Source: Nitrospirota bacterium
GTDB lineage: Bacteria; Nitrospirota; Nitrospiria; 2-01-FULL-66-17
DNA length: 58,520 bases
Direction of reading: 5' to 3'
Assembly: GCA_040757335.1 (NCBI GenBank)
Contig: JBFLXB010000023.1
Coordinates: 1 to 58,520 of the forward strand
Part shown: piece by piece, positions 1 to 16,415 of the stretch
Layout of the letters: every line of letters begins with the position of its first letter
How positions within the stretch are numbered: the stretch's first letter is position 1
Position numbers and translations under genes: made by a program
The notes under the pieces: generated by a model
What the model saw: only the letters and a program-made list of their open reading frames with translations
What the model was told of the DNA's origin: nothing
Database searches by the model: none

Positions 1-13
1 CCGCGCTCGCGAG

Positions 14-47
14 CGTCGGGCTGGGGTAGGTAGCCCCCCGCCCGACG
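14..47. terminator. GC-rich hairpin near the window edge
   Basis: An 8-bp perfect stem (CGTCGGGC with GCCCGACG) is extended by an inner GGGG/CCCC pairing. It lies about 180 bp past the end of the minus-strand kinase/phosphatase gene. No T-run follows in either direction, so a terminator role is only plausible. The remaining sequence between it and the kinase gene shows no convincing gene. Confidence 0.3.
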
Positions 48-229
48 CCGGGAGCCTCCTCAAGATCCCCCGAGAGGACCGAGGAACCGCCCCACGCGAG
101 CGGCGCGTCATCGTCACGTCAATGCAGGAGCAGTGCCATCACCACGGGCACGAAAATCACGCGGCCACGGCGAAAACACCCCGAAGAAGCGACAGAAATG
201 TGGCGGAGGCCGCAGAAATGTCCGGGCGG

Positions 230-1924
230 TCAGCGCGAGAGCAGCGCGGCAAGCAGGGCCAGCGCGAGCAGAGACGCGGTGATCTGCCAAAAGAGCAGCG
301 GGTTTCGCTCATACAATGAGCGCGGGCGGCGCTTGGAGACCGGGCCTTGGGCCAACCCCTGTTCGAGCTCAAAGGCGAGTTCCATGGCGTCCTGATGGCG
401 GTCATCGGCGGTCGCGGCGGTGGCCCGCAGCAGGAGCGCATCAAGCCACGCCGGCAAATCCGGACGAAGCTGCGCGGGGCTGGCGCGACGATGGAACCGC
501 GGCCGCGAAAACGCTTCGATCTCTCCGTAGGGGTACCGTCCGGTGAACAGCCGGTGCAGCGTGACCCCGAGTGCGTACACGTCGGAACGTTCATCCCCCG
601 CAAAGCCGTCCAACAGCTCGGGCGCCATGTAACTGGGGGTACCGGGAATGACGTCGGATTCCGATGCAGGAACGCCGGGGAGGCGCGCCGCCCCGAGGTC
701 AAACAGCTTGACTCCCCCGCCTTCGCACACCATGACGTTGTCGGGCTTGACGTCGCGGTGGATGATCTGCCGACGGTTGAGCGCATACACGGCTTTGGCC
801 AATTCGACCCCGATGCGGACCCCTTCTTCAACGGTCATCGGCCCGGCAGCCAGTCGCTGCTCGAGCGTGATCCCGCGGTAATACGGAGTCACGGAGTACA
901 ACCGAGTTTGTCGGCCCGGTGGAAGATCGATGGCGTTAGCCAGCCAGGGACTGCGTACCCGCGACGCGATCCAGCCTTCGCGGATAAACGCTCGCCTCGC
1001 CGCGGCTTCACCCGCCACGCGAGGGTGAGGAAACTTCAAGACCACTTCGCGCGGCTCAACCGTATCCACCGCCGCGAACAGGCGATTGTATCGTCCATTG
1101 GAGAGCTGCGCGGTGAGCCGAAACCCGTCCACCACGTCGCCGACCGCGGGGAGATCTCCCAACGGCCACGTCGCCATCGTCGATTCCAACTCCTCGGCCT
1201 CGATCGGCGGAACCTGTTTCACATCGACAACCAGCGCGGTAGCGTTGTCCCGTCCGCCCGCTTCGAGCGCGCGTTTGACGAGTCGCTCCGCCGCGTGCTG
1301 GGGCGAATCCGGATCAAGCAACAAGTCGGCGAGTACGCGGTCGGCCAACACGCCGTGAACCCCGTCGCTGCACAAGACAAAACGGTCGTCGGGTCTGAGG
1401 GGTTCGACGCTGTGGTCGATACGGAGGGTGTCCTCGATCCCAACGGCCCGGTACAAGACGTGGTGAAGATCGGGATGGCGCAGGGTGTGATCGATGGTCA
1501 ACCTCGCCAAGCGGCCGTCGCGCCAACGATACACCCGACTGTCGCCCACGTGGACCACGTGCGCTTCGCGGCCGCGGACGATCAACGCACTGAAGGTCGT
1601 GGCCATGTTGGCCAGGCAGGGGTCGAGGCGGCCCTGCGCAAAGACCCACCGGTTCATCGCATCCAGCGCTCGGCCCGCGGCTCGCTCCACCCCGATGGTC
1701 TCGGGCGAGCCGTAGTAGCCGTCGACAAATCCCCGCACCGTCAGTTCGGCGGCGGTCCGGCCTCCCAGCGAGCCACCCACGCCGTCCGCCACCGCGGCCA
1801 CCACCCCGCGCAGCGCGCGTTGGGTCTCGTCGCCGAGAAACACCCCGACGTAGTCTTCATTGCGCTCCCGAGCCCCGCGCTCGCTCGCGAACCCGATCTC
1901 CGTGGTCAACACGCCACCCGCCAT
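230..1924 (-). CDS. Fused PP2C phosphatase / Ser-Thr protein kinase with C-terminal membrane anchor
   Basis: 564 residues. The N-terminal PP2C-type phosphatase (about 1-238) shows the acidic metal-binding sites NED22-24, ADGVGG46-51, SDG186-188 and GRDN224-227. The kinase domain (about 268-520) has the ATP-binding Lys297, the catalytic HRD389-391, DLG409-411 in place of DFG, and APE434-436. The Gly-rich loop is degenerate. A hydrophobic helix at 545-563 probably anchors it with both domains in the cytoplasm. Such fusions are found beside nitrate transporter and nirBD genes in Pseudomonas and others, and here it follows narK on the same strand. A regulatory role in nitrogen-oxide uptake is inferred from context; the substrate is unknown. 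Confidence 0.9.
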   Translation of the reverse strand: MAGGVLTTEIGFASERGARERNEDYVGVFLGDETQRALRGVVAAVADGVGGSLGGRTAAELTVRGFVDGYYGSPETIGVERAAGRALDAMNRWVFAQGRLDPCLANMATTFSALIVRGREAHVVHVGDSRVYRWRDGRLARLTIDHTLRHPDLHHVLYRAVGIEDTLRIDHSVEPLRPDDRFVLCSDGVHGVLADRVLADLLLDPDSPQHAAERLVKRALEAGGRDNATALVVDVKQVPPIEAEELESTMATWPLGDLPAVGDVVDGFRLTAQLSNGRYNRLFAAVDTVEPREVVLKFPHPRVAGEAAARRAFIREGWIASRVRSPWLANAIDLPPGRQTRLYSVTPYYRGITLEQRLAAGPMTVEEGVRIGVELAKAVYALNRRQIIHRDVKPDNVMVCEGGGVKLFDLGAARLPGVPASESDVIPGTPSYMAPELLDGFAGDERSDVYALGVTLHRLFTGRYPYGEIEAFSRPRFHRRASPAQLRPDLPAWLDALLLRATAATADDRHQDAMELAFELEQGLAQGPVSKRRPRSLYERNPLLFWQITASLLALALLAALLSR

Positions 1925-1950
1925 GAGAACGACTCTTCTCTATCTCTCGC

Positions 1951-2071
1951 AGGCTGCTCAAAAAGGTTCAGATGCAAGGCGGAGCGAGCACCGCACCGCA
2001 GCGTACTGTGTGCGTACGTGAGGAGCGGATGCGCAGCGACAACGCCGCAGATGGACCTTTTTCAGCAGCCT
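1951..2071. repeat. Dispersed palindromic element, copy R1
   Basis: Imperfect 121-bp palindrome. The left arm begins AGGCTGCTCAAAAAGG and the right arm, read on the minus strand, begins AGGCTGCTGAAAAAGG. Shared internal marks are CAGATGCAAGGCG on the left, a central ACGTGAG, and CATCTGCGGCG on the right (minus strand). It fills the gap between the narK stop codon (one base away) and the kinase/phosphatase start. Other copies are at 26490, 30103, 35048 and 41091. Confidence 0.85.
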
Positions 2072-2072
2072 C

Positions 2073-3332
2073 TCAGACCCGCGCGCCGGATACCGCACCC
2101 CACGTCGTCCTCCAGCGAGCCTTCACCGCCACGAGCCCCACCAACCCCACCAGCGCAAAACCCGAAAAGAGCAGAAACCCCAGGGTGAAGCCTCCGGTGA
2201 GCCCGGCCGACCACCCGAGCGTCTTGGCGAGCACGAATCCGCCCACGCCCCCGGCCGCGCCGACCAACCCGGTGGTCACGCCGATTTCATGGCGAAACCG
2301 CAGGGGAACCAACTGAAAGACCGACCCATTGCCCATCCCCAACGCCATGGCCCCTACGAAAAAGACCGCCACCGATGTCCACGCGATCCCCGGCAGTGAA
2401 TCAAGCGTCCACCCCCCGCTTGCGGGGCGAGGCCCCTCGGGCATCCAGGCCACCGTCAGATACGCGCACCCCACCACTGCAAACAGCAATTGCAACGTCC
2501 GAATGCCGCCGAATCGATCCGCCAGCCAGCCGCCGGCCGGTCTGAAAATCGACCCGGCGAACACCACCAAGGCCGCCATCAGTCCGGCGGTGACGCCGGA
2601 CACATGATACCAGTGCGTGAAATACAACGGGAGGGCGCTGCTCAGGCCCACAAACCCGCCGAATGTGATGGAGTAAAATCCCATGAACCACCAGGTGTCG
2701 TTGTCCGCCAACACCGCGGCGTACCGGCGCCACGCGACCGGCGCCCGTTGATCCGGAGCGTCTTTGGCCATCCACGTATACAGAAAAAACACGATCGTCA
2801 CCGGAACCAGCAGCACCCCGAACACGGATTGCCACCCAAACCGCTCGGCCAACGACGGCACCACCAAGGCGTCAAGCACCACGCCCATGTTGCCCGCACC
2901 GGCAATCCCCATGACCAAGCCTTGGTACCGGGGCGGATACCACCGGCTGGCCTGGGGTAACGCCACGGCAAAACTCGCCCCGGCTACGCCCAAGACTACC
3001 CCCATTAATTCAACGGCAAGTTTGCTGTGCAGGCCGATCAACCACGCGTACGCCAGCCCGACCATGACGATCAGTTGGCCCAATTGACCGGTGCGCTTGG
3101 GACCAAGGTAATCGGCCAGCAGCCCGAGCGGGACTCTGAGCGCGGCGCCGCACAGAATAGGGATGGCGACGATCGAGAACTGCTCGCCAACCCCCAATTG
3201 GAGGTCGCGGGTCAGATAGAGCGACAACGGGCCCAGGACCACCCAGACCATGAAACTCAGATCAAAATATAAAAATGCCGCCACCAGCGTGGGCCAGTGA
3301 CCGGCGCGACGAAACTCCTGCAGGTTGAACAC
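2073..3332 (-). CDS. narK: NarK/NasA-type nitrate/nitrite MFS transporter
   Basis: 419 residues from a GTG start chosen because AAGGAG sits 7 nt upstream and the N-terminus then matches the family (VFNLQEFRRAGHWPTL). An in-frame start 31 codons further up gives an unlikely leader. It is a 12-helix major facilitator protein. Two nitrate-signature-like Gly/Asn motifs are visible, GIAGAGNMG and GMGNGSVFQLVPLRF. Expected role: nitrate uptake and/or nitrite exchange across the inner membrane. It follows the globin gene on the same strand and its stop abuts repeat R1. Whether it imports nitrate or exports nitrite cannot be decided from sequence. Confidence 0.93.
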   Translation of the reverse strand: MFNLQEFRRAGHWPTLVAAFLYFDLSFMVWVVLGPLSLYLTRDLQLGVGEQFSIVAIPILCGAALRVPLGLLADYLGPKRTGQLGQLIVMVGLAYAWLIGLHSKLAVELMGVVLGVAGASFAVALPQASRWYPPRYQGLVMGIAGAGNMGVVLDALVVPSLAERFGWQSVFGVLLVPVTIVFFLYTWMAKDAPDQRAPVAWRRYAAVLADNDTWWFMGFYSITFGGFVGLSSALPLYFTHWYHVSGVTAGLMAALVVFAGSIFRPAGGWLADRFGGIRTLQLLFAVVGCAYLTVAWMPEGPRPASGGWTLDSLPGIAWTSVAVFFVGAMALGMGNGSVFQLVPLRFRHEIGVTTGLVGAAGGVGGFVLAKTLGWSAGLTGGFTLGFLLFSGFALVGLVGLVAVKARWRTTWGAVSGARV

Positions 3333-3433
3333 GAGAGATCTCCTTGTCGATTTCGGCGACAAGGAGCAAGCGGGATGCCACGAGCAGTGGGCGAACCAAT
3401 ACGCAGATTCGACGCAGATCAACAAAAACGTCG

Positions 3434-3473
3434 AACATAAATGTCGCTTTACGACAGTCTAGTCGTAAGCGAC
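3434..3473 (-). promoter_or_regulatory. Candidate narK promoter overlapped by an inverted repeat
   Basis: Read on the minus strand, TAGACT (3456-3461) and TATGTT (3434-3439) are separated by 16 nt and lie about 95 nt before the narK GTG. A near-perfect inverted repeat at 3443-3473 (arms GTCGCTTTACGAC and GTCGTAAGCGAC, one bulged base, 6-nt centre) covers the -35 box. That placement looks like an operator. It matches no FNR or NsrR consensus that I recognise, and a weak terminator for the globin gene is the alternative. Confidence 0.45.
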
Positions 3474-3563
3474 GGGACTTGGATATCCCGACGCGACCGT
3501 GTACCCCCGATCAGCGCTGTTCAGCAACAAGCGCGGGCCGCTGCTCGCGAGAGTCGATCTTGA

Positions 3564-3986
3564 TTACACCGGTACCTCGGCGGCCTTGGCCGCGTCGATC
3601 ATCACGCCCGACAGCAGCGTGTAGGCCGCGACCCACGCGTCCTTCACCTGGGGGGTGAACGATTTCCCCAGCCCCAGCTCCAGTGTCCAGATCAGGGCGG
3701 CTCCCACCGTGTCGTAATGTCCCGGCGTGACGCCGTACCCCACGTGACGTTTCCCCAACTGTTGGACAGCCGGCACGATCTCGTCCAGCCTGGTGAGACC
3801 GTTAACCGCCACGCTGATCATTTGCATCAGCTTTTTCCCCTGCTCGACCATGTCGCCCTTGAAGAGCGCTTTGAGCTCGGGATCGAGCTCGAACAGGCGG
3901 CCGTAGAAGAGCGCCGCAGCCTGATCGGCGATCGGGGCGACCTGCTTGAAACTGCTCTGGACCAATGTGATCTGTTCCGGAGTCAT
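3564..3986 (-). CDS. Single-domain flavohemoglobin-type globin
   Basis: 140 residues with good spacing from AAGGA. The fold resembles Vitreoscilla-type haemoglobin: proximal His81 (GKRHVGYG), a B10-type Tyr28 (LFYGRLF) and an E7-type Gln49 (VEQGKKL). The Tyr/Gln distal pair is the one used for O2 and NO chemistry in flavohemoglobins. The FAD/NAD reductase domain is missing, so an external reductase would be needed for NO dioxygenation. Its position between nitrogen-oxide genes supports a role in NO or nitrite-derived stress; oxygen binding is also possible. Confidence 0.88.
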   Translation of the reverse strand: MTPEQITLVQSSFKQVAPIADQAAALFYGRLFELDPELKALFKGDMVEQGKKLMQMISVAVNGLTRLDEIVPAVQQLGKRHVGYGVTPGHYDTVGAALIWTLELGLGKSFTPQVKDAWVAAYTLLSGVMIDAAKAAEVPV

Positions 3987-4030
3987 GTCGGTTCCTTTCC
4001 TCAGGGTGAACGTCGGTGGATGGGCTTGAC

Positions 4031-4633
4031 TCAGCCGTTCAACGGAATTCGAATCACCACGCCGCCCATGACGTCACCCATCTTGAAGTCTTTTTTGGGC
4101 GAATCCGGATGGGCGTTGTGGCAGGCCACGCACACGGGCGCGACCGCGATGTCGGGGTAGACCGCCGTGAAGTACGTTCTGCCGCCCAAGTCTTCTTTGG
4201 TGTAGTAGGTCTTCCCGGTATTGTCCGCCACGTACTGCAGCCCCGTCTTTTCCGCCTGGGTCTTGGGCGCGTTTTGTTTGTTCACCGGCCACAGCGACTG
4301 AAGCGAGTAACTGAAATCCACGCCCTCGAGTTTCTGCGCGCGCTCCTTGGCCAGCTCGGACCCGAAACGAAACATCTGCGCCGGCAGGGGAACCGCCTTG
4401 TCGTCTTCGAAGTGCTCCGACGCCTTGATCACCTTTTCCTTCATGACCAGCCGGTTGACGATCTTTTGGGTGTAGACGCTGCGGTCCGAGTCCAAGACGA
4501 GGTGCAGCGCGTCCGCCATCACCTTGACCGGCACCATTTCCGCGCTGTCGGAAGCCGCGAGCGTCGCCCCTCCCGCGGTCATGAGAACCACCGCACATGC
4601 CAACCCAACCCCAGCACTCCACTTTCGTTGCAT
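4031..4633 (-). CDS. Periplasmic monoheme DUF3365 (Tll0287-like) cytochrome
   Basis: 200 residues. The start at 4633 is set by AGGAGG 8 nt upstream; longer in-frame starts lack a ribosome site. A signal peptide (about 1-27) is followed by a DUF3365/Tll0287-like domain with one c-type heme motif CVACH (168-172) near the end. This domain occurs alone or as a sensor input domain in bacteria. It lies directly downstream of the 11-heme cytochrome gene, so a role as soluble electron partner or heme-based sensor of that system is reasonable, but no function is proven for this type. Confidence 0.85.
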   Translation of the reverse strand: MQRKWSAGVGLACAVVLMTAGGATLAASDSAEMVPVKVMADALHLVLDSDRSVYTQKIVNRLVMKEKVIKASEHFEDDKAVPLPAQMFRFGSELAKERAQKLEGVDFSYSLQSLWPVNKQNAPKTQAEKTGLQYVADNTGKTYYTKEDLGGRTYFTAVYPDIAVAPVCVACHNAHPDSPKKDFKMGDVMGGVVIRIPLNG

Positions 4634-4710
4634 GGTTTTCTCCTCCTGTCGGTGACGTTGTTGTACAGCGACGGTGCGCCCCTCTTCGCTCCCGAGGTAC
4701 GTCCGTCGGT

Positions 4711-6147
4711 TCAGAAGCCGAACATCCCCGCGAGATCGTCGGCCTCGCCGTCCTGTGTCGCGCGTTTCTCTCGTTGCGCCTTGTCGTACTCCGCGGCCAT
4801 GGACATGGTTGGCACCTTGGTGCGGGGTCGTTCCGCAAAGTTGTTCGTGATCAACGCGGGGTCTGCCAGCGCGTCGATGGAAAAACCCAGGCCGTGGCAA
4901 TGCAGACACGCGGGACGGATCATCTTGGAGTTCGGGGACAAGGTGGCGCTCTGGTTATGGTCCACCACGATCCGGCTCACGAACTCGTCCACGTCCATGC
5001 GGACGCGCGGCATGTGACAGGTGGCGCAGGATACCCCTGATCCCGAAGGCGCGGTCCCGGCCAGTTCTTGTTGCCACACCCGATAGTGGGAAGACGCTTT
5101 GTACGCCAGGCTGTGCTCGTCGCGGTGGCAGCCGAGGCAAGCCTCCGCTGCGGCGCGGCGCGAATCGAACGCGTGGGCGCCGTGGCAGGCCGTACACGTG
5201 AGCGGTTTCTCGTGGGCATCGGCCACCATGGGCAGGCGCGCGGCTGCGGGCGTCATGGGAGACAGGCCGCGCTCGATCCGCATCCCGTGTTTGCCCTTCA
5301 TGAATCGTGCGACCTCAAGACCGTGGCACGCCCCGCACCCGCGCTGATCCGGGTGATCGTCCCATGCAGGGTTGGCGGCTTTCTCGCGCGTGATCACGTG
5401 GCAGGCGCTGCAGTTGACCCCGGAACGGCTGTGGGCCGTGTCGAGCCATTCACGTCTGAGGTTGAGGGCGTTATCCGGAGAGTCCGGTCCATCGGCATCC
5501 GTTAGGGACAACGCCCGCCGGGGGTAACGAGCGCGGGGATAGTCCACGATCGCATCCACCACGCTGCCGAATTCCCGAGCCGGCACCGCGGCTGCGGGGC
5601 GCGTAGCCGGCTCGTCCAGGTGCTTGACCAAGAAATCGGTGTACAGGGCTTGGTTGTCGTGAAAGTTGTGGCAGCCAGAATCTCGACACGTGCTGAACGC
5701 GAGGCCTTCGTGGCTTGGACGATCTTTGGCGACATCGCGGTGACAATGGACGCAGAAATCAGCCGGCTGGGTGAGGCCGTTCTTCGCAGTGATCTCCGGC
5801 CGATGTTCGGTGTGGCAGGTGGTGCAGTGCAGGGCATCGATTTTCCCCAGACGGTCGGCGTTGCGAGGGTCGGTGAACTTAGCCTTGGGATGGCTGTCGA
5901 ACGGCTTCTTGCGCACGTCGCCGTGGCACTCCACGCAGGCCTCCTGGAGGGACTCCACCCCACCGAACGGATTGCGATGGCACGCGCGGCAGGCCTGCGA
6001 CAATTGATGGTGGCCCGCGGTCAGTTCACCAGGCATGAACACGGTCTTGTTTTCCCCCCGCGTCAACGCGAACGCCAAACAGCCCGCAAACGCGGCCGAC
6101 GATAGCAGCCACCATCCCCAGAGCCACAGCGCCTTTCCACGGACCAT
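4711..6147 (-). CDS. Membrane-anchored undecaheme c-type cytochrome
   Basis: 478 residues with an uncleaved N-terminal helix (about 5-28) and the rest periplasmic. There are ten CxxCH motifs (at 53, 71, 108, 132, 246, 271, 318, 337, 374 and 414) plus one CX4CH (154-160), so eleven predicted hemes. They fall in an N-terminal group of five and a C-terminal group of six, separated by a heme-free stretch of about 85 residues. No CxxCK site is present, unlike NrfA, octaheme nitrite reductase or OTR, so the catalytic-heme motif of those enzymes is absent. It begins 14 nt after the NirB-like/diheme-b gene and probably takes electrons from it. Terminal reductase versus electron conduit is unresolved. 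Confidence 0.9.
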   Translation of the reverse strand: MVRGKALWLWGWWLLSSAAFAGCLAFALTRGENKTVFMPGELTAGHHQLSQACRACHRNPFGGVESLQEACVECHGDVRKKPFDSHPKAKFTDPRNADRLGKIDALHCTTCHTEHRPEITAKNGLTQPADFCVHCHRDVAKDRPSHEGLAFSTCRDSGCHNFHDNQALYTDFLVKHLDEPATRPAAAVPAREFGSVVDAIVDYPRARYPRRALSLTDADGPDSPDNALNLRREWLDTAHSRSGVNCSACHVITREKAANPAWDDHPDQRGCGACHGLEVARFMKGKHGMRIERGLSPMTPAAARLPMVADAHEKPLTCTACHGAHAFDSRRAAAEACLGCHRDEHSLAYKASSHYRVWQQELAGTAPSGSGVSCATCHMPRVRMDVDEFVSRIVVDHNQSATLSPNSKMIRPACLHCHGLGFSIDALADPALITNNFAERPRTKVPTMSMAAEYDKAQREKRATQDGEADDLAGMFGF

Positions 6148-6161
6148 CCCCGGCCGGACGA

Positions 6162-8168
6162 TCAGAAGTAGTAGGACTTGAGCACATGGAACGCCAGCAA
6201 CACCGGCACGGGCCACAACCACACCAGGTGAAGCCACACCGCGTTGGCCCGCACCCGCCGCGCCGAGTCCGGCGGCAGGCGGTGTTCCAGCCCCATGACC
6301 AGACTTGCCGCCGCGCCCGACGCCACCATGCCGACGAACGAGGCCATCAGCCACCAATTCAGGTTCGATCCCATGCGCAGGCCGGTGTGCGCGACTAAGA
6401 TCAGGGCTGCCACGCCTCCAAGGACCACGTGCCCCGTCCTCCATCGCCCGTAGCGCGTGGGGGAACCGCGGACCACGCGTTTGCGAAAACTGAAGAGCGC
6501 GAGCAGTGCCGACAGTCCCACCAGCGTGAACCCCGACGCTTGCTTGAGGACCGCGTCGCGCCAGAGTTGATCCCACGCCCAAGCCAGGTGCGTGGTCGTA
6601 CTGAAGGAAATGACCCACGGACCCACAACTCCGGCCGAGGCAACCAGGACCAACACCGCGATCACGATCAGCGTACGGAACGCGGCCGCAGGTTGAATCG
6701 CCGCCGTTCCTCCGAGCAACTCGACGAGCAAGGGCCGGCAGCTTCCGCACACGGTCGATGCACGCGTGGCGGTCGCCAACGCCTCCACGGTGGCACACCC
6801 CGCCGCCGCCGCGGCGCTCAGGGCCCCGCGCGTGACACCCGTGCACGTGCACACCACCATCCGCGACGGCCATTGGCCCACGCACCGGCCCGTTCCGGAA
6901 CACCAAACCTCGCCGCGCCGCCGGAAGCGCGCCAGCTGCCAGGGCCACACCCGTCGCTTCAACATCACGAGTTCCTGGATCCGGGCCAATCCGGCGGCCT
7001 GTCCCAAAACGATGGCGCCGACCGCGCGTCCCCGATCCAGCACGAGCTTGCAGTACACCCCTGATTCCGGACGTGCGTAGGTGATGCACCGCAGCGACGG
7101 CGAGAGATCCATCTCGTTGACCGCGCCGATACTGAACAACGGTCGATCGATCACTTTGAGCCTGGTCGCCGCAATCGAACCGTTGTAGCGCGATGCGCCC
7201 CCGAGGATGCAGTGGGCCGCCACCGCGCTCTGTTCCAGGCCGGGTGCCACGAGACCGTAGGTCCGTCCGCGGTGTTCGGCGCACTCGCCCACCGCGTAGA
7301 TCCTGGGGTCGGTGGTTTGCATGCGATCGTTGACCCGGATGCCTCGCCCGATGCTCAAGCCGTGCGCGGCCGCAAGATCCACGTTGGGGATGATGCCGAC
7401 CGCCACGACCAGCGTGTCGCATTCGACGGTCCGCCCGCTCGCAAGCCGGACCGCGGTCACGCGATCGTTCCCAAGGATCTCCTTCACCCCGTCCGCAAGC
7501 ACGACCGAAATCCCTAACGAGACCACGTGCCGTCGCAATATTTCACCGGCTTCATCGTCGAGCTGCTGCCACATCAAACGCGCGTTGTGCTCGATGACCG
7601 TGACCTGGGTGTGATCGCGCTGCATGGCGCGGGCCACTTCCAGCCCGAGCAGTCCTCCGCCCAACACCACGGTGTGTCGGCTCCGGACGCGCCGGGCGAG
7701 CAAGGCCTGCGCGTTGCTCAGGTTGCGAAAGGTATAGACTCCGAGGCGATCAATGCCGGGAATGGCCGGAATCCTGGGTCGGGATCCGACCGCCAGTACC
7801 AGGTTGGAGTACGGCTGCACCTCCCCGGTCGAGTCCGTCACCGTGCACGCGTCTCTGTCTATGGCCACGACTTCGCAGGAATGGCGCTGGACCACGTGAT
7901 GGTCGTCGGGGACCACGAGCTGGTTGATCAGCGCGGTGTAACCGACCTCGCCAGCCAACAATGCCGAGAGCTTGACCCGATCGTAGGGTTGCCACGGCTC
8001 GTTGCCGTACAGCACCACCGGATGCCGGGGATCGCGCGTGAGGAGCTCCCGCGCCGTGCTAATCCCCACCGGTCCCATCCCCACGATCACCGTCGGGAGG
8101 GGACCGATTGCCGGAACCTCGGCCGTCTCTGTTGCGCTGGGCGCGCGTTTAGCTGTGGCGAATACCAT
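6162..8168 (-). CDS. NirB-like NAD(P)H flavoprotein with BFD [2Fe-2S] domain fused to a diheme-b-like membrane domain
   Basis: 668 residues. The FAD-binding motif VGMGPVG (29-35) and NAD(P)-binding motif LGGGLLGLEVA (169-179) are followed by a BFD-type [2Fe-2S] domain with Cys440, 442, 474 and 477. This is the N-terminal half of NirB or the NasB layout. The siroheme nitrite reductase part is absent. Instead there are five predicted helices (about 499-519, 543-561, 578-596, 605-626, 643-662). Helices 3 and 5 each carry His-x13-His (580/594 and 647/661), the spacing of transmembrane diheme b cytochromes. Electron flow from NAD(P)H through FAD, Fe-S and two b hemes to the periplasmic undecaheme protein is inferred. 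The start lacks a strong ribosome site. Confidence 0.88.
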   Translation of the reverse strand: MVFATAKRAPSATETAEVPAIGPLPTVIVGMGPVGISTARELLTRDPRHPVVLYGNEPWQPYDRVKLSALLAGEVGYTALINQLVVPDDHHVVQRHSCEVVAIDRDACTVTDSTGEVQPYSNLVLAVGSRPRIPAIPGIDRLGVYTFRNLSNAQALLARRVRSRHTVVLGGGLLGLEVARAMQRDHTQVTVIEHNARLMWQQLDDEAGEILRRHVVSLGISVVLADGVKEILGNDRVTAVRLASGRTVECDTLVVAVGIIPNVDLAAAHGLSIGRGIRVNDRMQTTDPRIYAVGECAEHRGRTYGLVAPGLEQSAVAAHCILGGASRYNGSIAATRLKVIDRPLFSIGAVNEMDLSPSLRCITYARPESGVYCKLVLDRGRAVGAIVLGQAAGLARIQELVMLKRRVWPWQLARFRRRGEVWCSGTGRCVGQWPSRMVVCTCTGVTRGALSAAAAAGCATVEALATATRASTVCGSCRPLLVELLGGTAAIQPAAAFRTLIVIAVLVLVASAGVVGPWVISFSTTTHLAWAWDQLWRDAVLKQASGFTLVGLSALLALFSFRKRVVRGSPTRYGRWRTGHVVLGGVAALILVAHTGLRMGSNLNWWLMASFVGMVASGAAASLVMGLEHRLPPDSARRVRANAVWLHLVWLWPVPVLLAFHVLKSYYF

Positions 8169-8504
8169 GAACGACGTCGACTCAACCCAGTGCAATGACG
8201 AGTGGTCGGGCGGCCTCAAGCGTGGGAAGGCCCGTTGGAGAAACCAGGCCCCATCACTCCCGCCCCTGCACCCACAGCTACGCAAGCGCAATGCCAGACA
8301 GCGCGACCTCGAAAATCGCGGCGCGCGGCCTGAGATCACGACGGCTCGGACAGAAGTGTTGGAACCAGCGACACGAGTGTTGTTGCACGGTCGATGTGTG
8401 AACAAGGAGTAGGCAATGACGCGGACGCGTCCACCAGCCCGCGGAAGACACGCGTGGTCTCAGGTACGGGCCGCACGGGAGCGCGCGGTCCACAGACAAT
8501 GCCT
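8169..8504. other. 336-bp gap between nrtC and the NirB-like gene
   Basis: No convincing gene, promoter or hairpin was identified. The minus-strand frame of the NirB-like gene stays open across most of it but reads as unlikely, Arg/Ser/Cys-rich protein. A 30-codon plus-strand frame at 8416 has AGGAG before its ATG but no protein-like character. Confidence 0.5.
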
Positions 8505-9386
8505 TTAGACGGTTACAACCTTGGTAGGCTCGTTGGCGTACGGGCGACCGTGAGGTTTGGTGGACTTTTCGTCCGCAGGCCTCTCGTGGATTTTGGCATA
8601 GAGAAAGTGCAGAACAGCGTGCCGAAAGCGGTTGTACTGCGGGCTATTGGCCAGTGCGACCCGGTCCCGCGGTCTCGGAAGATCAACGGTCAATACCTCC
8701 CCGATCGTGGCGGAGGGCCCATTGGTCATCATCACGATTCGATCGGACAACAACACCGCTTCGTCCACATCGTGGGTGATCATGATCACGGTATTGCCCA
8801 ATTTCGAGTGGATCTCCATCAACGAGTCCTGTAACTGGGCCCTGGTCAGAGCGTCCAGAGCGCCAAAGGGCTCGTCCATCAGCAAGATGGCCGGCTCCAT
8901 CGCCAGCGCGCGCGCGATCCCGACTCGCTGCTTCATTCCCCCGGAGATCTGATCCGGGCGCTTGTCCAGCGCGTGTTCCATGTGGACCAGTTGAAGATTA
9001 TGGACGATCCAATCCCGCATCTCCGCTTTGGTCTTTTTGCCCTTGAACACGCGCTTGACCGCCAGTTCGACATTTTGGTACGCGGTGAGCCAGGGGAGGA
9101 GCGAATGGTTTTGAAACACGACCGCGCGCTCCGGTCCGGGCTCCGTGATTTCCTTTCCGTCGAGTATGGCTCCGCCTTCGGTGGCGCGATAGAGGCCCGC
9201 GACAATGTTCAAGACCGTCGACTTACCGCAGCCGGAATGGCCGATCAGCGAGATGAACTCACCCCGGTTGATCTTCAGATTGATGTTGTCCAGAGCTCTG
9301 AAAGAACCCGCCGGAGCGGGGAAATCCATGGACAGTCCCGTCAATTCGAGCTGGGGCATCGACAACACGTTCACCTCCGGATTCAA
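8505..9386 (-). CDS. nrtC: Nitrate ABC transporter ATPase
   Basis: 293 residues from the longest start. A GGAGG within codons 3-5 suggests translation may begin a few codons later (GTG7 or TTG8). ABC ATPase features are all present: Walker A GHSGCGKST, Q-loop VFQNHSLLPW, signature SGGMKQR, Walker B ILLMDEP and the H-loop ITHDVDEA. It is a single-domain protein like NrtD/NasD, without the NrtA-like C-terminal domain of cyanobacterial NrtC. It is the last gene of the porin-nrtA-nrtB-nrtC run and powers uptake of nitrate and/or nitrite. Confidence 0.92.
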   Translation of the reverse strand: MNPEVNVLSMPQLELTGLSMDFPAPAGSFRALDNINLKINRGEFISLIGHSGCGKSTVLNIVAGLYRATEGGAILDGKEITEPGPERAVVFQNHSLLPWLTAYQNVELAVKRVFKGKKTKAEMRDWIVHNLQLVHMEHALDKRPDQISGGMKQRVGIARALAMEPAILLMDEPFGALDALTRAQLQDSLMEIHSKLGNTVIMITHDVDEAVLLSDRIVMMTNGPSATIGEVLTVDLPRPRDRVALANSPQYNRFRHAVLHFLYAKIHERPADEKSTKPHGRPYANEPTKVVTV

Positions 9387-9395
9387 CGACTTTGA

Positions 9396-10448
9396 CTAGC
9401 GCAGCACGGCCGACTTGTCCCACGAGACCAGTTTCTGCAGCGTGAGCATGGAGCGATCCAAGACAAAGCCGATCGACCCGATAACGAGCACCGCCACCAT
9501 GATGCGGCCCAGCGAATTGGAGCTGCCGTTCTGGAATTCGTCCCAGACGAATTTCCCGAGGCCTGGATTCTGGGCCAACATTTCTGCGGCAATGAGCACC
9601 ATCCACGCGGTCCCCAGGCTGAGGCGCAGCCCCGTGAACACCATGGGAATCGCGGACGGCAGCACGATCCTTCGCACGTGCGTCAACCAACTGAGGCGGA
9701 GCACTTTGCTGACATTGTTGAGATCGTTGCTCACGCTCACCACGCCCACGGCGGTGTTGATCAGGGTCGGCCACAGACTGCACAGCAACACGGTGAACAT
9801 GGAGTTCAGGAACGATTTGGCAAACATCGGCTCCTGACTCACGTACACCGCGCTCACCACCATCGTCACCAGCGGGAGCCACGCGAGCGGTGATACGGGC
9901 TTGAAGACTTGGATCAGCGGATTCACCGCCGCGTACACCCCGGAACTGAGCCCGATCAAAATCCCGAACGGTATGGCGATCACCGACGCCAGCAAGAACC
10001 CCGTCATCGCGGTGTAGAGGCTGGTCCAGATCTGATCGAAAAAGGTGTCTTTCCCCGTGTACTCTCGCCGCTTGATCTCGGCGTTCGCGTCCTCGGCCAA
10101 CAGGGCTTGGTTGCGTTCCTCTTGGCGCTCATAGAACGCCGCTGCTTTGGCACGCTCCTGATTGTGTTCATCCACGAGGTTTCGCGCCTGGGACCAGACC
10201 TCTACCGGACCGGGAAACTTCCCGAGAGACGTATCGATTCGTGGAGCAGCCATCTGCCACAAAATCAGGAACACCGACACTCCGACGAGTGGGACGATCA
10301 GGCCCTTTAGAACGGCAGCCGACCGTAGAAGCAACGCAGGACCCTTTATTCCCCTAGACCCGTCGTCTTGATTGCGCGTCAAGAGAAAACTCATCACTTT
10401 CATGGCCATGCTGGGATCTTTGTGAACGAGTGCTTGGTGACTGGACAC
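9396..10448 (-). CDS. nrtB: Nitrate ABC transporter permease
   Basis: 350 residues from a GTG with GGAG 7 nt upstream, 13 nt after nrtA. It is a BPD-type inner-membrane permease. The first helix (about 46-66) is followed by a charged coiled-coil-like segment (ERAKAAAFYERQEERNQALL) before the transport core. The EAA-type cytoplasmic loop that docks the ATPase lies near VSKVLRLSWLTHVRRIVLPSA. It pairs with NrtA and NrtC in nitrate/nitrite uptake. Confidence 0.92.
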   Translation of the reverse strand: MSSHQALVHKDPSMAMKVMSFLLTRNQDDGSRGIKGPALLLRSAAVLKGLIVPLVGVSVFLILWQMAAPRIDTSLGKFPGPVEVWSQARNLVDEHNQERAKAAAFYERQEERNQALLAEDANAEIKRREYTGKDTFFDQIWTSLYTAMTGFLLASVIAIPFGILIGLSSGVYAAVNPLIQVFKPVSPLAWLPLVTMVVSAVYVSQEPMFAKSFLNSMFTVLLCSLWPTLINTAVGVVSVSNDLNNVSKVLRLSWLTHVRRIVLPSAIPMVFTGLRLSLGTAWMVLIAAEMLAQNPGLGKFVWDEFQNGSSNSLGRIMVAVLVIGSIGFVLDRSMLTLQKLVSWDKSAVLR

Positions 10449-10461
10449 GTCGCGGCTCCGC

Positions 10462-11862
10462 TTAAAGCTTGGTCTTCCCCTTCAACCCGATTTTGAATTG
10501 TTCCAGGTAGTGGTTGGGCTTCCTCCCGTCAAACGCGACCCCGTCGATGAATTCGGTTTGGGGCGGACGGAACCCGGTCTCTTTGTCGAACGCTGGAAAC
10601 TCACTCGCCGACATCTTGCCTTCGGCGATCAGCGCCTCGGCCGCCTGACGATAAATGTCCGTCCGGTACACCTTTTTCGCCACATCGAGGTACCAACTAT
10701 CCGGCTTGTACTCGGAAATCTGGCCCCACCGTCGCATCTGGGTCAGATACCAAACCGCGTCGGAGTAATAGGGGTATGTGGCGTGGTAGCGGAAGAACAC
10801 GTTGAAGTCGGGTACGGGACGTTTGTCCCCTTTCTCGTACTCAAACGTCCCGGTCATGGAATTCGCGATGACCTCCGCATCCGCTCCCACGTATTGGGGT
10901 TTGGAGATGATTTTTACCGCCTCCATACGATTGGCGTTGTTCTTCTCGTCGAGCCATTTGCCGGCTCGAATGAGCGCCTTGACGATCCGGGTGGTGGTAT
11001 TGGGATACTTTTTGGCGAAATCCTCGTGAAGACCGAACACTTTTTCCGGATTGTCTTTCCAGATCTCATAGTCGGTGATCACGGGCACGCCGATCCCCTT
11101 GAACACCGCTTGTTGGTTCCAGGGTTCGCCCACGCAGTACCCGTAGATCGTGCCCGCCTCCATGGTGGCGGGCATCTGGGGCGGCGGCGTCACCGAGATG
11201 AAGACGTCGGCGTCGATGGTGCCGTTGATGTCCCCCTTGTGCGGAGCGTAATAACCCGGATGGAGCCCCCCCGCAGCCAGCCAATACCGCATCTCGTAGT
11301 TGTGGGTGGACACCGGGAACACCACCCCCATCTTGAAGGGCTTTCCGGCCTCTTTGTACTTTTGCACCACGGGTTTGAGGTAGTCGGCCTTGATGGGATG
11401 CACCGGCTTGCCGTCCTTCATCGGCAACGACTTCTTCATCTCTTTCCACACGTCGTTCGACACCGTGATCCCGTTGCCGTTCAGGTCCATGCTGAACGGC
11501 GTCACGATGGGAGCCTTGGTGCCGAATCCGATATACGCGGCCAAGGGTTGGCCCGCCAGCATGTGCGCCCCGTCGAGTTGACCGTCGATGACCCCGTCGA
11601 GCAGCACCTTCCAGTTGGCCTGCGCCTCGAGCTTCACGTAGAGGCCTTCGTCCTCGAAATACCCCTTTTCGTACGCGATCGCCAGGGGCACCATATCGGT
11701 GAGCTTGATGAACCCAAACGTCAGGTCTTCCTTCTCCGGCTTGCCGAGTTCCGCAGACGCCGGCGCGCCTGCGCTCCCGCCCACGACAGCAGCGCAGACC
11801 ATCGCAGCGACGAACATCACCTTCCACCACCTCAGATCCACACCCTTGTCTCCTTGATGCAT
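10462..11862 (-). CDS. nrtA: Periplasmic nitrate-binding protein
   Basis: 466 residues of the NrtA/SsuA-like solute-binding family. The signal peptide (about 1-37) ends at a normal ASA cleavage site with no lipobox Cys, so this copy looks soluble, unlike lipoprotein NrtA of cyanobacteria. Family-typical stretches include [30 protein letters not shown] and [13 protein letters not shown]. It captures nitrate or nitrite and delivers it to NrtB. It lies 45 nt after the porin gene and 13 nt before nrtB. A G-rich tract upstream can serve as ribosome site. Confidence 0.94.
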
Positions 11863-11907
11863 GTTTCAATTCCCCCCAATGCAGTAGGTAGATAGATCTC
11901 CTGATCG

Positions 11908-13272
11908 CTAGAAACTCGCTCCAACCTGCAAATAGAACCAGTCCGATGCGTCGGTTGCGGTGGGAAAGTTCACGTCGACATAGTCTCCCGGCATAAACCG
12001 TCCGTATCCGCCTTCGATGCGAACCTTCTCCTTGACCATCATGTAAACCACGAGGTCGATTTCCTGTCCCAGATCCGATTCGGCGTTGTTGGCCGGGGTG
12101 GTGCGAAAGACCGCGCCCGACGCTGCGTACCAGTTGTCGCCTTCCTCGGCGAGTGAGAACTTGTGGTAGTCCAGACTCACCCCGGTGGTCGCGCTCGGCT
12201 TGGCGCTCAACGACAACCGCAGGTCCTGCATGTTGCGCCATCCCACGTAGTCCATGACGCCGTAGAACGGGTGGTTGGTGGGAAAGAGGTTCTCGAAGGT
12301 CTCGAATTTTTCGTCGCTGCTATCGCTGTCGCCAGAAGCCCGGTCGTATTCGACGCCGATGCGGGGCTTCATCGCGACCGGCGCGGTGTAGCCGGCTTTC
12401 AGCACGAAGGCGTGCGCCGAGATGTCGCTCTCCGGCGTCGTGCCTCTGGCGTCCATGCTCCCTGTCTGGTACGCGGCCTCGCCCGTGTAGTCGATCGCCT
12501 CGTTCGCCGCCTTGCCGTCCGCCCGCAACCCCACGGTCACGCGGTTCTGTCCGCGAGCGGCCGGAGAGGTGATCGGGGATAACAAGGCGGTACCCGCGGC
12601 ATTCAATTCATTGGCGTTTCCCCCGTCCAACAGGTACATCACATAGGGTTCCACGGTCACGGGGGCGGTTTTGATGCTGCCGTAAACTCCGTAGAACGTC
12701 TGTTGCTCCCGATTCGACGGAGCAAAGGCGGGACTGCTGCCGGTGTTCGTACCATATACTTTCGGAGAGGCCGCCCAGAAATCTACCCGAACCGGGGCCG
12801 CCACATAGGTCACGCGAAGTCCATCAAAGCTTCGCCCGACATTGTTCCAGCCGAAATGCCCCACCAAGCGATGCTCGCCGAACGCCAGCTCCTGCCGGCC
12901 CAGGATCAGGCTGGTAGGGCCCACGTTCTTGATGCTCACGTAACCCTGGTGCAGATCCAGGAGGTTGTCGTTGGACACGGTCGAGACCTCGCCCCCAAAA
13001 ATACGAGCGTCCTGGATCTGGATGAACGCAGCGACATCCGGCGTTATCTCGTAGTTCAGGTGAAGACGGATTCTCGAGGCGATGTAACTCAACGTATCGT
13101 TGGCGTCCTTGTTGAAATCCGCGTTGTCGCGAAACTCGTAGCGTTCCCGGACCTCGCCGCCAATCGTGACGGCCTGGACGTCAAGCGCGCCGTATGCGCG
13201 CGGCGCCTCGGTCCCGAGAACCGCAAGTGCGGTTAACGCGGCTGAGGCGAGATTTCGCACTGCTCTTCGCAT
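11908..13272 (-). CDS. Outer-membrane porin, alginate-export family
   Basis: 454 residues. The start at 13272 has AAGGAGGG 8 nt upstream; a longer in-frame start adds a leader with no signal. A signal peptide ending AYG precedes a beta-barrel of alternating hydrophobic strands that finishes in Phe, the usual outer-membrane C-terminal residue. The sequence resembles the alginate_exp (PF13372) family, which is widely used for barrels unrelated to alginate. It is the first gene of the nrtABC run, so the likely job is letting nitrate/nitrite cross the outer membrane; this is context inference. Confidence 0.85.
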   Translation of the reverse strand: MRRAVRNLASAALTALAVLGTEAPRAYGALDVQAVTIGGEVRERYEFRDNADFNKDANDTLSYIASRIRLHLNYEITPDVAAFIQIQDARIFGGEVSTVSNDNLLDLHQGYVSIKNVGPTSLILGRQELAFGEHRLVGHFGWNNVGRSFDGLRVTYVAAPVRVDFWAASPKVYGTNTGSSPAFAPSNREQQTFYGVYGSIKTAPVTVEPYVMYLLDGGNANELNAAGTALLSPITSPAARGQNRVTVGLRADGKAANEAIDYTGEAAYQTGSMDARGTTPESDISAHAFVLKAGYTAPVAMKPRIGVEYDRASGDSDSSDEKFETFENLFPTNHPFYGVMDYVGWRNMQDLRLSLSAKPSATTGVSLDYHKFSLAEEGDNWYAASGAVFRTTPANNAESDLGQEIDLVVYMMVKEKVRIEGGYGRFMPGDYVDVNFPTATDASDWFYLQVGASF

Positions 13273-13376
13273 CGTGTTTCCCTCCTTCGGGTTCAAGTGG
13301 ACATCGCTCTCGTCCGTACACATATCGTTTCGTTCCGCCAAACACCGGTTTGAATAGCTTCCGGTCGCGTAACCCG

Positions 13377-14195
13377 CTACGACGCCTTGGCCAAGGAGAC
13401 ATCGGTTCCCGTGGCCCGGGGCAGCAGGTCAGCCAACGGGCGAGCATACTGGTCCAACAATTCGTACGTCCGGCGGTAGCGCTCGATCTCTCCGGGCGCG
13501 CGGGTTTTTTTCCCGTAATAGAGCCCGAGCAGCGGCGTGCGGGCGATCAGAACCTTGTCGTCGAACAGCACGAAGTTGGTAACCATCTCCACACCTTCTC
13601 GTCCCGAGAAAGCCACGTCTTCGTGCAAGACGACGCGCACCGCGATGCCGTCGTCCTGTTGGTGCCGAATGGTTCTGAGCACGTCGGAATCTTCCAGGTC
13701 TCCCCGGCGCAATACGAAAATCCTCGCGATGGCCACACCGCGATCGCGCGTCCGCACCTGGTCCTCGTAGTACTTGCGCTTTTGCACCTTGCCGAGCCAA
13801 TCCGTGACGTCGACCGAATTCACGGCGCGGATCTCCCGGGTGCATCGTCCCAGGCACTGGCTGGCTTCAAAGTAGTACTCGCCCTCGGTCAGTGGAATCG
13901 CGCCGTCCCCCAGTAACACGAGCACTTGATGGGTCGTGTCGAGGACGGATCGGCTCTTGACGATGGCCTCGGGATCTTCGACGCGGTCCAACGCCGACTC
14001 GATTCGGTGCGCACGCATCACCGCTTCGAGAGTCCGAGTCTCCGCGGCGCGCAGCCGGTCGAGAATTAGATGCACGGCCAACGTCAGGAGCACGCCGACG
14101 CCGAAGAGGACGTAGGCTTCGCGCTCGAGACTGAGCACGAAGTGAAACAGCAGCGCCAATCCGGCCGCGACCAGGAACTCGATGAGTGTCCGCAT
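13377..14195 (-). CDS. Unrecognised protein with two N-terminal membrane helices
   Basis: 272 residues; the start has GGAG just upstream. Two hydrophobic helices (about 2-20 and 26-45) are followed by a short charged helix and a soluble domain of about 200 residues. The soluble part holds a Cys pair in SQCLGRCTREI and an alternating segment near VLFDDKVLIARTPLLGLYYG. I do not recognise the family. It is 104 nt upstream of the porin gene and about 190 nt after cheB on the same strand, so it could belong to either block or be a membrane-bound sensor. Confidence 0.7.
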   Translation of the reverse strand: MRTLIEFLVAAGLALLFHFVLSLEREAYVLFGVGVLLTLAVHLILDRLRAAETRTLEAVMRAHRIESALDRVEDPEAIVKSRSVLDTTHQVLVLLGDGAIPLTEGEYYFEASQCLGRCTREIRAVNSVDVTDWLGKVQKRKYYEDQVRTRDRGVAIARIFVLRRGDLEDSDVLRTIRHQQDDGIAVRVVLHEDVAFSGREGVEMVTNFVLFDDKVLIARTPLLGLYYGKKTRAPGEIERYRRTYELLDQYARPLADLLPRATGTDVSLAKAS

Positions 14196-14388
14196 CTCCT
14201 CTCCGTTGTTTTCGAATGGGAAGAGCAAACGATGTGCCTGAAGAATCCCGCGTCAGGCGGTCAGGCCAGGACCGCAACAACAGATTCGTCGAACAGAAGT
14301 GTCGGTGGCGAACAAATCGGTACGGAGCGGGTTGTGGTGCGGAGGAATACAGCGAAGAGCGATGGTTGGTTCGGGGACGAGCCTCTTG

Positions 14389-15519
14389 CTAAGCGGTCTG
14401 CCTGGTCCTGCCCAACGCCGCTCTGCGGAGCACCGCGGCGGCAATCGCTCCCAGCGGCAGTACCTCGTCCACCACGCCGCGAGCAATGGCTTCCGCCGGC
14501 ATCCCGAACACCACCGACGTGGCCTCGTCCTGGGCGATGGTTGCGGCTCCCGCTCGTTTGAGTTCCACCATGCCTTGCGCGCCGTCGTCGCCCATTCCGG
14601 TCATGATGACGCCCACCGCGTTGGGCCCGGCCACCTGCGCCACCGACCGAAACAGCACGTCCACGCTGGGCCGATGCCGCGCCACGAGCGGCCCGCCCGT
14701 CACCTGGACCGCGTAGGAATCACCGCAGGCGACGAGCACGAGGTGTCGATTACCCGGCGCGATGAGGGCTCGCCCCGGAGTGACCCGATCCCCGTGTTGG
14801 GCTTCCCGCACTTCGATCCGGCACGACCGATCCAGGCGATCCGCCAACGCTCTGGTAAAGCGCTCGGGCATGTGCTGGACGATGACGAGGCCCGGCGAAT
14901 CGGCCGGAAGCGCCTGGAGGAGCTCTCTGAGCGCGTCGGTCCCGCCGGTGGACGCGCCCACGGCCACGACCGGGTCCGTGATGGAGGCCGGGCGGGGGCC
15001 GCCGGCCGCGGGGATCACCGCATCCGCGCTCAACTTCGGTGGAACGCGCCGCCCCGCGCCGATCGGCGCGCCCACGCGAGCCAGCGCGGCCGCGCGCACC
15101 GCATCGACGAAGAGCACCGCCGATTCCTCGAAGAACTCGCGAAGCCCCAGTTTGGGTTTCGTGACGATCTCCACCGCGCCCTCTTCCATCGCGAGCACCG
15201 CAGCCTCGGTGCCGGCTCCGGTGAAGCTCGAACAGATCACGACCGGAATCGGGTCTTCGGTCATGATCTTATGGAGAAAGGTCAATCCGTCCATGCGCGG
15301 CATTTCCAGGTCCAGGACGATCACGTCCGGACGGACGCGAGCCATCTGGTCCATCGCGACGAAGGGATCCGCCGCCGCGGTCACGGCCACTCCGCGCTCG
15401 CGCGACAAGATCGCGGTGATGAGTTGACGGACCACGGCGGAGTCGTCCACGACCAGCACCCGCAGCGGCCGCCCTTCAGCCGCAGGGTTTCGAGACGCCG
15501 GCCGGCCGCGTGCGACCAC
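14389..15519 (-). CDS. cheB: Chemotaxis response regulator / protein-glutamate methylesterase CheB
   Basis: 376 residues from a GTG that overlaps the cheR stop (TAGTG), with GGAGG at the end of cheR as ribosome site. The receiver domain (about 19-140) has VVDDSAVVRQ and phosphoacceptor Asp70 in VIVLDLEMPRMDG. The C-terminal methylesterase domain shows the catalytic Ser in GASTGGT, the His in QHMPERF and the Asp in MTGMGDDGAQGM. It removes methyl groups from, or deamidates, the receptor under CheA control. It is the last gene of the operon. Confidence 0.95.
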   Translation of the reverse strand: MVARGRPASRNPAAEGRPLRVLVVDDSAVVRQLITAILSRERGVAVTAAADPFVAMDQMARVRPDVIVLDLEMPRMDGLTFLHKIMTEDPIPVVICSSFTGAGTEAAVLAMEEGAVEIVTKPKLGLREFFEESAVLFVDAVRAAALARVGAPIGAGRRVPPKLSADAVIPAAGGPRPASITDPVVAVGASTGGTDALRELLQALPADSPGLVIVQHMPERFTRALADRLDRSCRIEVREAQHGDRVTPGRALIAPGNRHLVLVACGDSYAVQVTGGPLVARHRPSVDVLFRSVAQVAGPNAVGVIMTGMGDDGAQGMVELKRAGAATIAQDEATSVVFGMPAEAIARGVVDEVLPLGAIAAAVLRRAALGRTRQTA

Positions 15520-16415
15520 TACGCCGCCTCCAGGGTCTCGGCATCCGCCCGCACGTAGACGGTCGGCCCCACGGCCCGCAGTCGGTCGGTGAGCCCGGTG
15601 GCGCTTTCGACCTGGCCCAGAATCAGGTACCCGCCGGGCGCCAGATACCCCATCAAGCGATCCACCACCCGCGCCTTGGCCCCGGCGTCGAAGTAGATCA
15701 GCACATTTCGGCAGAAGATCACGTCGAACGGCCCGCCCACGGGATACACCTCGTTGTTGAGATTCACGCGAGCGAACCGCAGCAGCGCGCGGATCGACGG
15801 TGCGGCCTTCATCCGACCTCGCTGACCGGCGACCCCTTTGAGCATGTACGCCTTCAGAAACTTCTCGGGGATCTCGTGTTTCTGGTCCAGCGACCACACG
15901 CCCACGCGCGCCGCTTCCAAGGCCCGCACGGACAAGTCGGTGGCCAAAATCTCCACGTCCCATCCCGCCGCGGCCGGGAACCGGTCCTCCGCCACCATCG
16001 CCAACGAGTAGACCTCTTGGCCCGTGGCGCACGCCGCACTCCACATTCGAATGGTCCGCGAGCGCAGGCCCGCCGCAGCCATGCGGTCCCAGCGTGGGAA
16101 GACCACGTCCCGCAGGAACTCGAAGTGTTGCGGTTCGCGAAAAAAATGCGTTTCGTTGGTGGAGACCGCGTCGAACAGACTGATCTCCTCGGCTTTATCC
16201 CCCTGGACGAGGCGCCGGAAGTACTCGCCGTAGCTTGACAGTTCGAGATCACGCAGGCGTCTGGCGAGGCGCGCGGCGAGCAACTCCTTCTTGGCGGGAC
16301 CAAGTTGGATTCCCGAATGCTCGTAGATGTAGGTGCGAAATCGTTCGTACTCCAAGTCGGTCATCGGCGGAATGGCCGGATCCGGCCCGACCGATGCGGA
16401 GGAGGGATCGGACAT
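15519..16415 (-). CDS. cheR: Chemotaxis protein methyltransferase CheR
   Basis: 298 residues whose ATG overlaps the cheW stop (TGATG). The N-terminal all-helical CheR domain is followed by a SAM-binding domain: NETHFFREPQHFEFL, SAACATGQEVYSLAM (usually SAGCSTGEE), ILATDLS and FDVIFCRNVLIYFD. It methylates glutamates on the receptor. No C-terminal TPR or other extension is present, and the receptor gene in this operon ends without a CheR-binding pentapeptide. Confidence 0.95.
   Translation of the reverse strand: MSDPSSASVGPDPAIPPMTDLEYERFRTYIYEHSGIQLGPAKKELLAARLARRLRDLELSSYGEYFRRLVQGDKAEEISLFDAVSTNETHFFREPQHFEFLRDVVFPRWDRMAAAGLRSRTIRMWSAACATGQEVYSLAMVAEDRFPAAAGWDVEILATDLSVRALEAARVGVWSLDQKHEIPEKFLKAYMLKGVAGQRGRMKAAPSIRALLRFARVNLNNEVYPVGGPFDVIFCRNVLIYFDAGAKARVVDRLMGYLAPGGYLILGQVESATGLTDRLRAVGPTVYVRADAETLEAA

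Follow-up and report, generated by a model that had tools for sequence, protein, structure and literature searches.

In flavocytochromes b of the NOX/FRE type, an NAD(P)H-dependent flavin domain drives electrons out by way of two stacked b hemes that are held by paired histidines on two helices. DUF4405 proteins were shown to bind heme b and were modelled with four central histidines (PMC11334425). In Bradyrhizobium japonicum, the narK-bjgb-flp-nasC genes under NasS-NasT control encode an NAD(P)H flavoprotein and a haemoglobin that unite nitrate assimilation with nitric oxide (NO) detoxification (PMC4724949). For sCache_heme proteins that stand alone, redox roles are presumed, whereas those fused to signalling domains act like NO sensors (PMC12889525). 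Here we describe a three-gene module on a 58,520-nucleotide stretch of a Nitrospirota genome (contig JBFLXB010000023.1, hereafter the window). It encodes a NirB-type front end fused to a predicted di-heme-b membrane domain, an undecaheme c-type cytochrome and a Tll0287-like monoheme protein. We propose that these proteins constitute a conduit from NADH across the membrane to periplasmic hemes, an architecture to which we assign a probability of about 0.8. An earlier interpretation made from the letters of this DNA (the sequence-only reading) had proposed such an NAD(P)H-to-multiheme conduit and knew of no described enzyme with its architecture; likewise, no description of the fusion or of the three-gene module turned up in the literature searched, which largely excluded subscription papers and preprints.

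The fusion gene (8168–6162, minus strand) is a single open frame with an ATG start that encodes 668 amino acids. A Pfam search identified an FAD/NAD(P)H domain (Pyr_redox_2, residues 26–303, positions 7260–8093), a Rubredoxin_C-like domain (residues 334–401, positions 6966–7169) and a BFD [2Fe-2S] domain (Fer2_BFD, residues 438–485, positions 6714–6857) whose four cysteines are C440, C442, C474 and C477. The FAD/NAD(P)H domain is thus followed by BFD in the order found in NirB, and the closest NCBIfam model was NirB (TIGR02374), which matched residues 27–490 with 354.5 bits but did not reach its cut-off of 578.35. The fusion therefore shares the FAD/NAD(P)H, Rubredoxin_C and BFD half with NirB, but it has neither NIR_SIR_ferr nor the siroheme/4Fe-4S domain NIR_SIR (PF01077), for which the Pfam search gave no match, and carries a membrane cytochrome in their place. 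An AlphaFold model of the fusion was of low confidence (predicted local distance difference test, pLDDT, 52); the nearest folds in a Foldseek search with this model were putidaredoxin reductase and BphA4, matches that reflect the FAD domain only. The NirB-type module followed by five membrane helices, as the sequence-only reading had it, was borne out by Pfam, the model and loop charge. An artefactual fusion or frameshift, a possibility raised with that reading, was ruled out by the identical architecture read in independent genomes. Because these genomes carry the fusion and the composition of the cassette fits its own genome, we conclude that the single open frame is not an assembly artefact.

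The membrane domain occupies residues 495–668 (positions 6165–6686, minus strand). In the low-confidence model its five helices lie at residues 496–511, 534–565, 570–595, 602–626 and 633–667, with the N-terminus inside. Among 26 homologues, the loops at 562–579 and 625–645 were positively charged (means of 5.7 and 3.9 Lys plus Arg, respectively), and the remaining loops were not. Together with the five modelled helices, this pattern suggests an N-in, C-out topology with the FAD side in the cytoplasm, and because these two loops are the positive ones, helices 3 and 5 would run parallel, as had been proposed. Helix 3 carries H580 (codon 6429–6431) and H594 (6387–6389), and helix 5 carries H647 (6228–6230) and H661 (6186–6188), exactly the positions named in the sequence-only reading. 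All four histidines were invariant in the 26 aligned fusions, as were the x13 spacing of both pairs, the four BFD cysteines and the FAD/NAD glycines. H580 and H647 are predicted to face the cytoplasm and H594 and H661 the periplasm, an arrangement compatible with the two stacked b-heme sites envisaged earlier, and we infer from it that the domain binds heme b.

Several known cytochromes resemble this domain. A Pfam search with the window's membrane part alone and a PDB profile search with the membrane domain gave no match. DUF4405 matched 14 of 25 homologous membrane domains weakly (best 1.3e-4), the window's own domain not among them, and the b561 and ferric reductase likenesses were weaker still, with Ferric_reduct matching 4 of the 25. 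Like DUF4405, MsrQ and PepSY-like di-heme cytochromes, the fusion has four conserved central histidines; it differs in having five helices (by the low-confidence model and loop charge) instead of the six described, and in being fused to an NADH/BFD module with a multiheme partner, where the described proteins have a flavinylated one (PMC11334425). With the NOX/FRE type it shares an NAD(P)H flavin domain and the predicted pairing of histidines on two helices, although the reductase is of the FNR type there and of the Pyr_redox/BFD type here.

The undecaheme gene (6147–4711, minus strand) begins 14 nucleotides past the fusion stop codon and encodes a 478-residue protein with an N-terminal membrane anchor or signal. 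Its eleven heme motifs, ten CXXCH and one CX4CH, confirm the 11-heme assignment made earlier, and the same ten plus one were present in 29 of 29 complete undecaheme proteins (27 aligned, plus two of the window's phylum). In the 27 aligned proteins, eleven histidines outside the motifs were invariant, at 46, 86, 115, 146 and 163 in the N-terminal part (five hemes) and at 239, 287, 325, 345, 354 and 397 in the C-terminal part (six hemes); H176 was nearly invariant. Eleven candidate distal ligands for eleven hemes fit bis-His ligation of every heme and a role in electron transfer.

The sequence-only reading had offered periplasmic nitrite reduction as an example of what the module might do, and one explanation is that it forms ammonia from nitrite as a periplasmic, NADH-dependent reductase in which the undecaheme protein is catalytic. 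Near its last two hemes, the C-terminal part does resemble NrfA and octaheme nitrite reductase, in weak alignments (at best 34.7 bits) that span one or two hemes, and Cytochrom_C552 (PF02335) matched 15 of the 27 members below or near its cut-off. However, the window's protein scored 19.8 bits against a cut-off of 24.1, the undecaheme proteins contain eleven hemes and no CXXCK motif, and the candidate distal histidines equal the hemes in number. From these three features, the histidine count, the missing CXXCK heme and the score below the NrfA cut-off, we conclude that the undecaheme protein is probably a wire and not an enzyme, and its proposed reduction of nitrite is so far unsupported. It may nevertheless contain one open heme, or a catalytic heme without CXXCK. 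The structure model of the undecaheme protein (AlphaFold from three sequences, pLDDT 37) was unusable.

The third constant gene (4031–4633, minus strand) encodes a stand-alone Tll0287-like (sCache_heme) monoheme protein of 200 amino acids. It matched PF11845 at 3e-19 (70.3 bits against a cut-off of 24.1) and has a CXXCH motif that is invariant in 26 homologues, as expected for a relative of Tll0287 and the stand-alone sCache_heme proteins (PMC12889525). It differs from Tll0287 in lacking the axial cysteine of that protein; the invariant M87 is a possible sixth heme ligand. This gene is no less constant than those for the fusion and the undecaheme protein and had gone unmentioned in the sequence-only reading, as had the globin gene that frequently accompanies it.

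Of the 30 genomes in which the fusion was found, 27 belong to Pseudomonadota and three, including the window's own, to the phylum of the window. A scan of genome collections recovered all three genes in a betaproteobacterial groundwater metagenome-assembled genome (MAG; locus L007) and in a Pseudomonadales MAG (L008), and a membrane-domain profile search detected complete fusions in 26 of 369 sampled genomes of the class to which the former belongs (about 7%). Single-sequence searches of the window's phylum returned only the window itself and one spurious match within a cinA-like gene (L006); a 25-sequence profile identified two true fusion homologues in the sample of that phylum. The order fusion, undecaheme, Tll0287-like gene on one strand was conserved in 26 of 26 loci tested, and the first heme codon of the undecaheme gene lay 145–211 nucleotides past the fusion stop in these loci. 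The undecaheme gene was incomplete at a scaffold gap in one locus (L064) and at a contig end in another (L076). The proposed conduit is thus supported by invariant histidines and cysteines in 26 fusions, by an undecaheme gene on the same strand in every locus tested and by the predicted topology; its domains, candidate ligands, topology signal, fixed gene order and co-occurrence are seen directly in the sequences. The window's undecaheme protein fell inside a Pseudomonadota clade (support 100/100 and 98/94), apart from the two sequences of its own phylum. A contaminant contig was made unlikely by tetranucleotide composition, which groups the cassette and its contig with the window's own genome. 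As the undecaheme protein nests among Pseudomonadota while the contig matches its own genome, the module was probably acquired by horizontal transfer.

Two variants bear on the source of the electrons. In one locus (L060, 7733–10324), an 863-residue protein combines two cyclic nucleotide monophosphate-binding domains, BFD and an FNR-type FAD/NAD reductase with the same membrane domain, and no undecaheme gene was found within the 20 kb read. As this reductase is of the FNR type instead of Pyr_redox, the membrane domain is found joined to NAD(P)H reductases of two unrelated kinds. In the other (L059, 8986–10236), the di-heme-b domain is fused to GPP34 (Golgi phosphoprotein 3-like) in place of the NADH/BFD part; this protein retains the four histidines, as judged by eye, with undecaheme and Tll0287-like genes downstream, and the same genome holds a normal fusion (L058). 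Because of these variants, we consider that the membrane domain is a module that would take electrons from front ends of different kinds. The lack of an NAD(P)H domain in the GPP34 variant could also speak for inward flow, in which electrons from a lithotrophic donor would pass through the undecaheme protein and the b hemes to the cytoplasm for NAD+ reduction or for supply of Nas and NirB; chains from multihemes to b hemes can work in either direction. NAD+ reduction would however be uphill and against the membrane potential, no porin-cytochrome genes for electron uptake were seen at the loci, and the tie to nitrate genes would go unexplained; we regard inward flow as very unlikely, and infer that electrons move outward.

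As to the relation with siroheme nitrite reductase, the sequence-only reading held that the module stands in the place of nirBD and replaces it. The local context of NarK, kinase/phosphatase and Nrt genes agrees with the first point, but the genome has a siroheme NirB-type enzyme elsewhere. On another contig (C48), a siroheme NirB-type protein of 991 amino acids is encoded beside nasA, the nitrate reductase gene; MobA and a DmsBC-like protein are encoded on this contig too. NIR_SIR matches in this genome were confined to C48 and a second contig, C10. The 991-residue protein (L013:6204-9179) is NirA-like in having two NIR_SIR and two NIR_SIR_ferr domains, whereas classical NirB has a single set. 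Contig C10 encodes (L014:8328-10763) an 811-residue sulfite reductase-like protein with an additional C-terminal region resembling a TusA-like domain. Using classical NirB as the query, we found that enzyme in 22 of the 27 Pseudomonadota genomes with the module; with the window's genome, siroheme NirB was present in 23 of 28 tested, and nasA in 25 of the 28. In the genome of locus L007, about 13 kb separate NirB from the module within one nrt-narK-kinase-nirBD-nasA cluster. Replacement was therefore not borne out: with NirB in most of these genomes and nasA in 25 of 28, the module accompanies the normal pathway.

The five genomes without classical NirB comprise three with a two-module siroheme protein, which may be NirA or CysI, one with shorter NIR_SIR frames and one (G601, loci L064 and L082) that has nasA and the module with no match to NIR_SIR or Cytochrom_C552. 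This last genome would favour a nitrite reductase function for the module, but its scaffold contains 100-N gaps near both loci; because of these gaps its missing NirB is weak evidence, and it was kept only as such. In view of the co-occurrence of siroheme NirB with the module in 23 genomes and the features of the undecaheme protein described above, we consider a periplasmic ammonia-forming nitrite reductase quite unlikely.

The genes around the module link it to nitrogen oxides. In the window it is followed by genes on the minus strand for a single-domain haemoglobin of 140 amino acids (3564–3986) and a NarK-family nitrate/nitrite transporter of the major facilitator superfamily (2073–3425), both identified by family match, and preceded by genes on that strand for a nitrate ATP-binding cassette transporter: an NrtD/C ATPase (8505–9386; TIGR01184, above cut-off), an NrtB-type permease (9396–10448) and an NrtA-type substrate-binding protein (10462–11862; PF13379). 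Locus L007 shares with the window the clustering of narK with genes for an NAD(P)H flavoprotein and a single-domain haemoglobin, and NrtA was near the module in 10 loci. In 10 of 23 loci, a NasT-like ANTAR gene lay upstream at a distance of up to 2.5 kb; none was seen in the window. The likeness to B. japonicum narK-bjgb-flp-nasC thus extends to NarK, haemoglobin and NAD(P)H flavoprotein near a nitrate transporter and, in those 10 loci, to the NasT-like gene (PMC4724949). The differences are that Flp is described as a cytoplasmic-type oxidoreductase and that system has no described counterpart of the membrane heme domain, the undecaheme protein or the sCache_heme protein (PMC4724949), and that nasC is in the B. 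japonicum operon whereas nasA is on another contig here. By analogy, our best reading is that the module may be an electron-exporting counterpart of the B. japonicum system.

In 17 of 26 loci, the Tll0287-like gene had a globin gene no more than 2 kb downstream. Since Bjgb of B. japonicum is proposed to receive electrons from Flp (PMC4724949) and a globin adjoins the module in most loci, the fusion might mainly be the reductase of that globin, an equivalent of Flp, with the membrane and undecaheme parts serving only as an anchor or redox sensor. We judge this, like inward flow, very unlikely, as about one third of the loci have no globin, yet the undecaheme gene and the four membrane histidines are never lost from complete loci. 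In 10 of 26 loci, a gene for a small c-type cytochrome came after the Tll0287-like one. This would suit an overflow valve in which soluble cytochrome c and a terminal oxidase take up surplus NAD(P)H electrons, balancing redox when nitrate or nitrite perturbs respiration; electron transfer from NADH to cytochrome c is downhill, and the membrane potential favours outward flow. Most loci lack the small cytochrome, however, and a valve would leave the tie to nasA, NasT and globin unexplained, which makes it about as doubtful as the nitrite reductase.

In the proposed conduit, the fusion would act as a flavocytochrome-b-type NADH dehydrogenase of the inner membrane that moves electrons outward from the cytoplasm. 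They would pass from NADH through FAD and the BFD [2Fe-2S] cluster to the inner heme b (H580/H647) and the outer heme b (H594/H661), and then along the 11-heme periplasmic wire to the Tll0287-like protein, sometimes with a small cytochrome c. The exported reducing power may serve the periplasmic handling of NO, nitrite or hydroxylamine, adding to cytoplasmic NirB instead of substituting for it, while cytoplasmic NO would be left to the globin. We put this nitrogen-oxide purpose at slightly less than an even chance, and both it and the final acceptor are speculative. A stronger version, in which the NirB-front-end/di-heme-b exporter, with the undecaheme and sCache_heme proteins, reduces nitrite, NO or hydroxylamine extracytoplasmically as a second branch of nitrate assimilation and an undescribed class, seems to us rather unlikely. 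Several observations weigh against our interpretation. The GPP34 variant keeps the undecaheme and Tll0287-like genes without an NAD(P)H domain, so NADH is not always the donor; loci L054, L057 and others show no nitrogen genes within the stretch read; about a third of loci are without a globin; and bis-His ligation of the undecaheme protein is read from a count of histidines and not from geometry.

Further genes on the minus strand flank this region. A fused PP2C phosphatase/Ser-Thr kinase (230–1924), assigned by reading the sequence, also lies beside narK and nirB in the genome of locus L007. Upstream of the transporter genes are an Alginate_exp-type outer-membrane porin (11908–13341), which recurs near the module in several genomes, and a 283-residue membrane protein without a Pfam match (13377–14228). 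Two genomes of the window's phylum (L102 and L103) encode a protein resembling the latter, with homology judged by eye, in the interval from the porin to the fusion. An Rfam search of positions 1–16000 gave no match. Two adjacent, overlapping genes at 24364–26405 resemble what we take to be the amidinotransferase/dihydrolase and LOR/SDH halves of cyanobacterial AgrE/ArgZ, apparently separate here.

The known enzymes of nitrate assimilation are thought to be cytoplasmic. If our interpretation is correct, the module would connect NADH directly, without quinones, to multiheme cytochromes of the periplasm and link this route to that pathway. It also constitutes a defined, testable gene set, and it suggests a use for stand-alone sCache_heme proteins.

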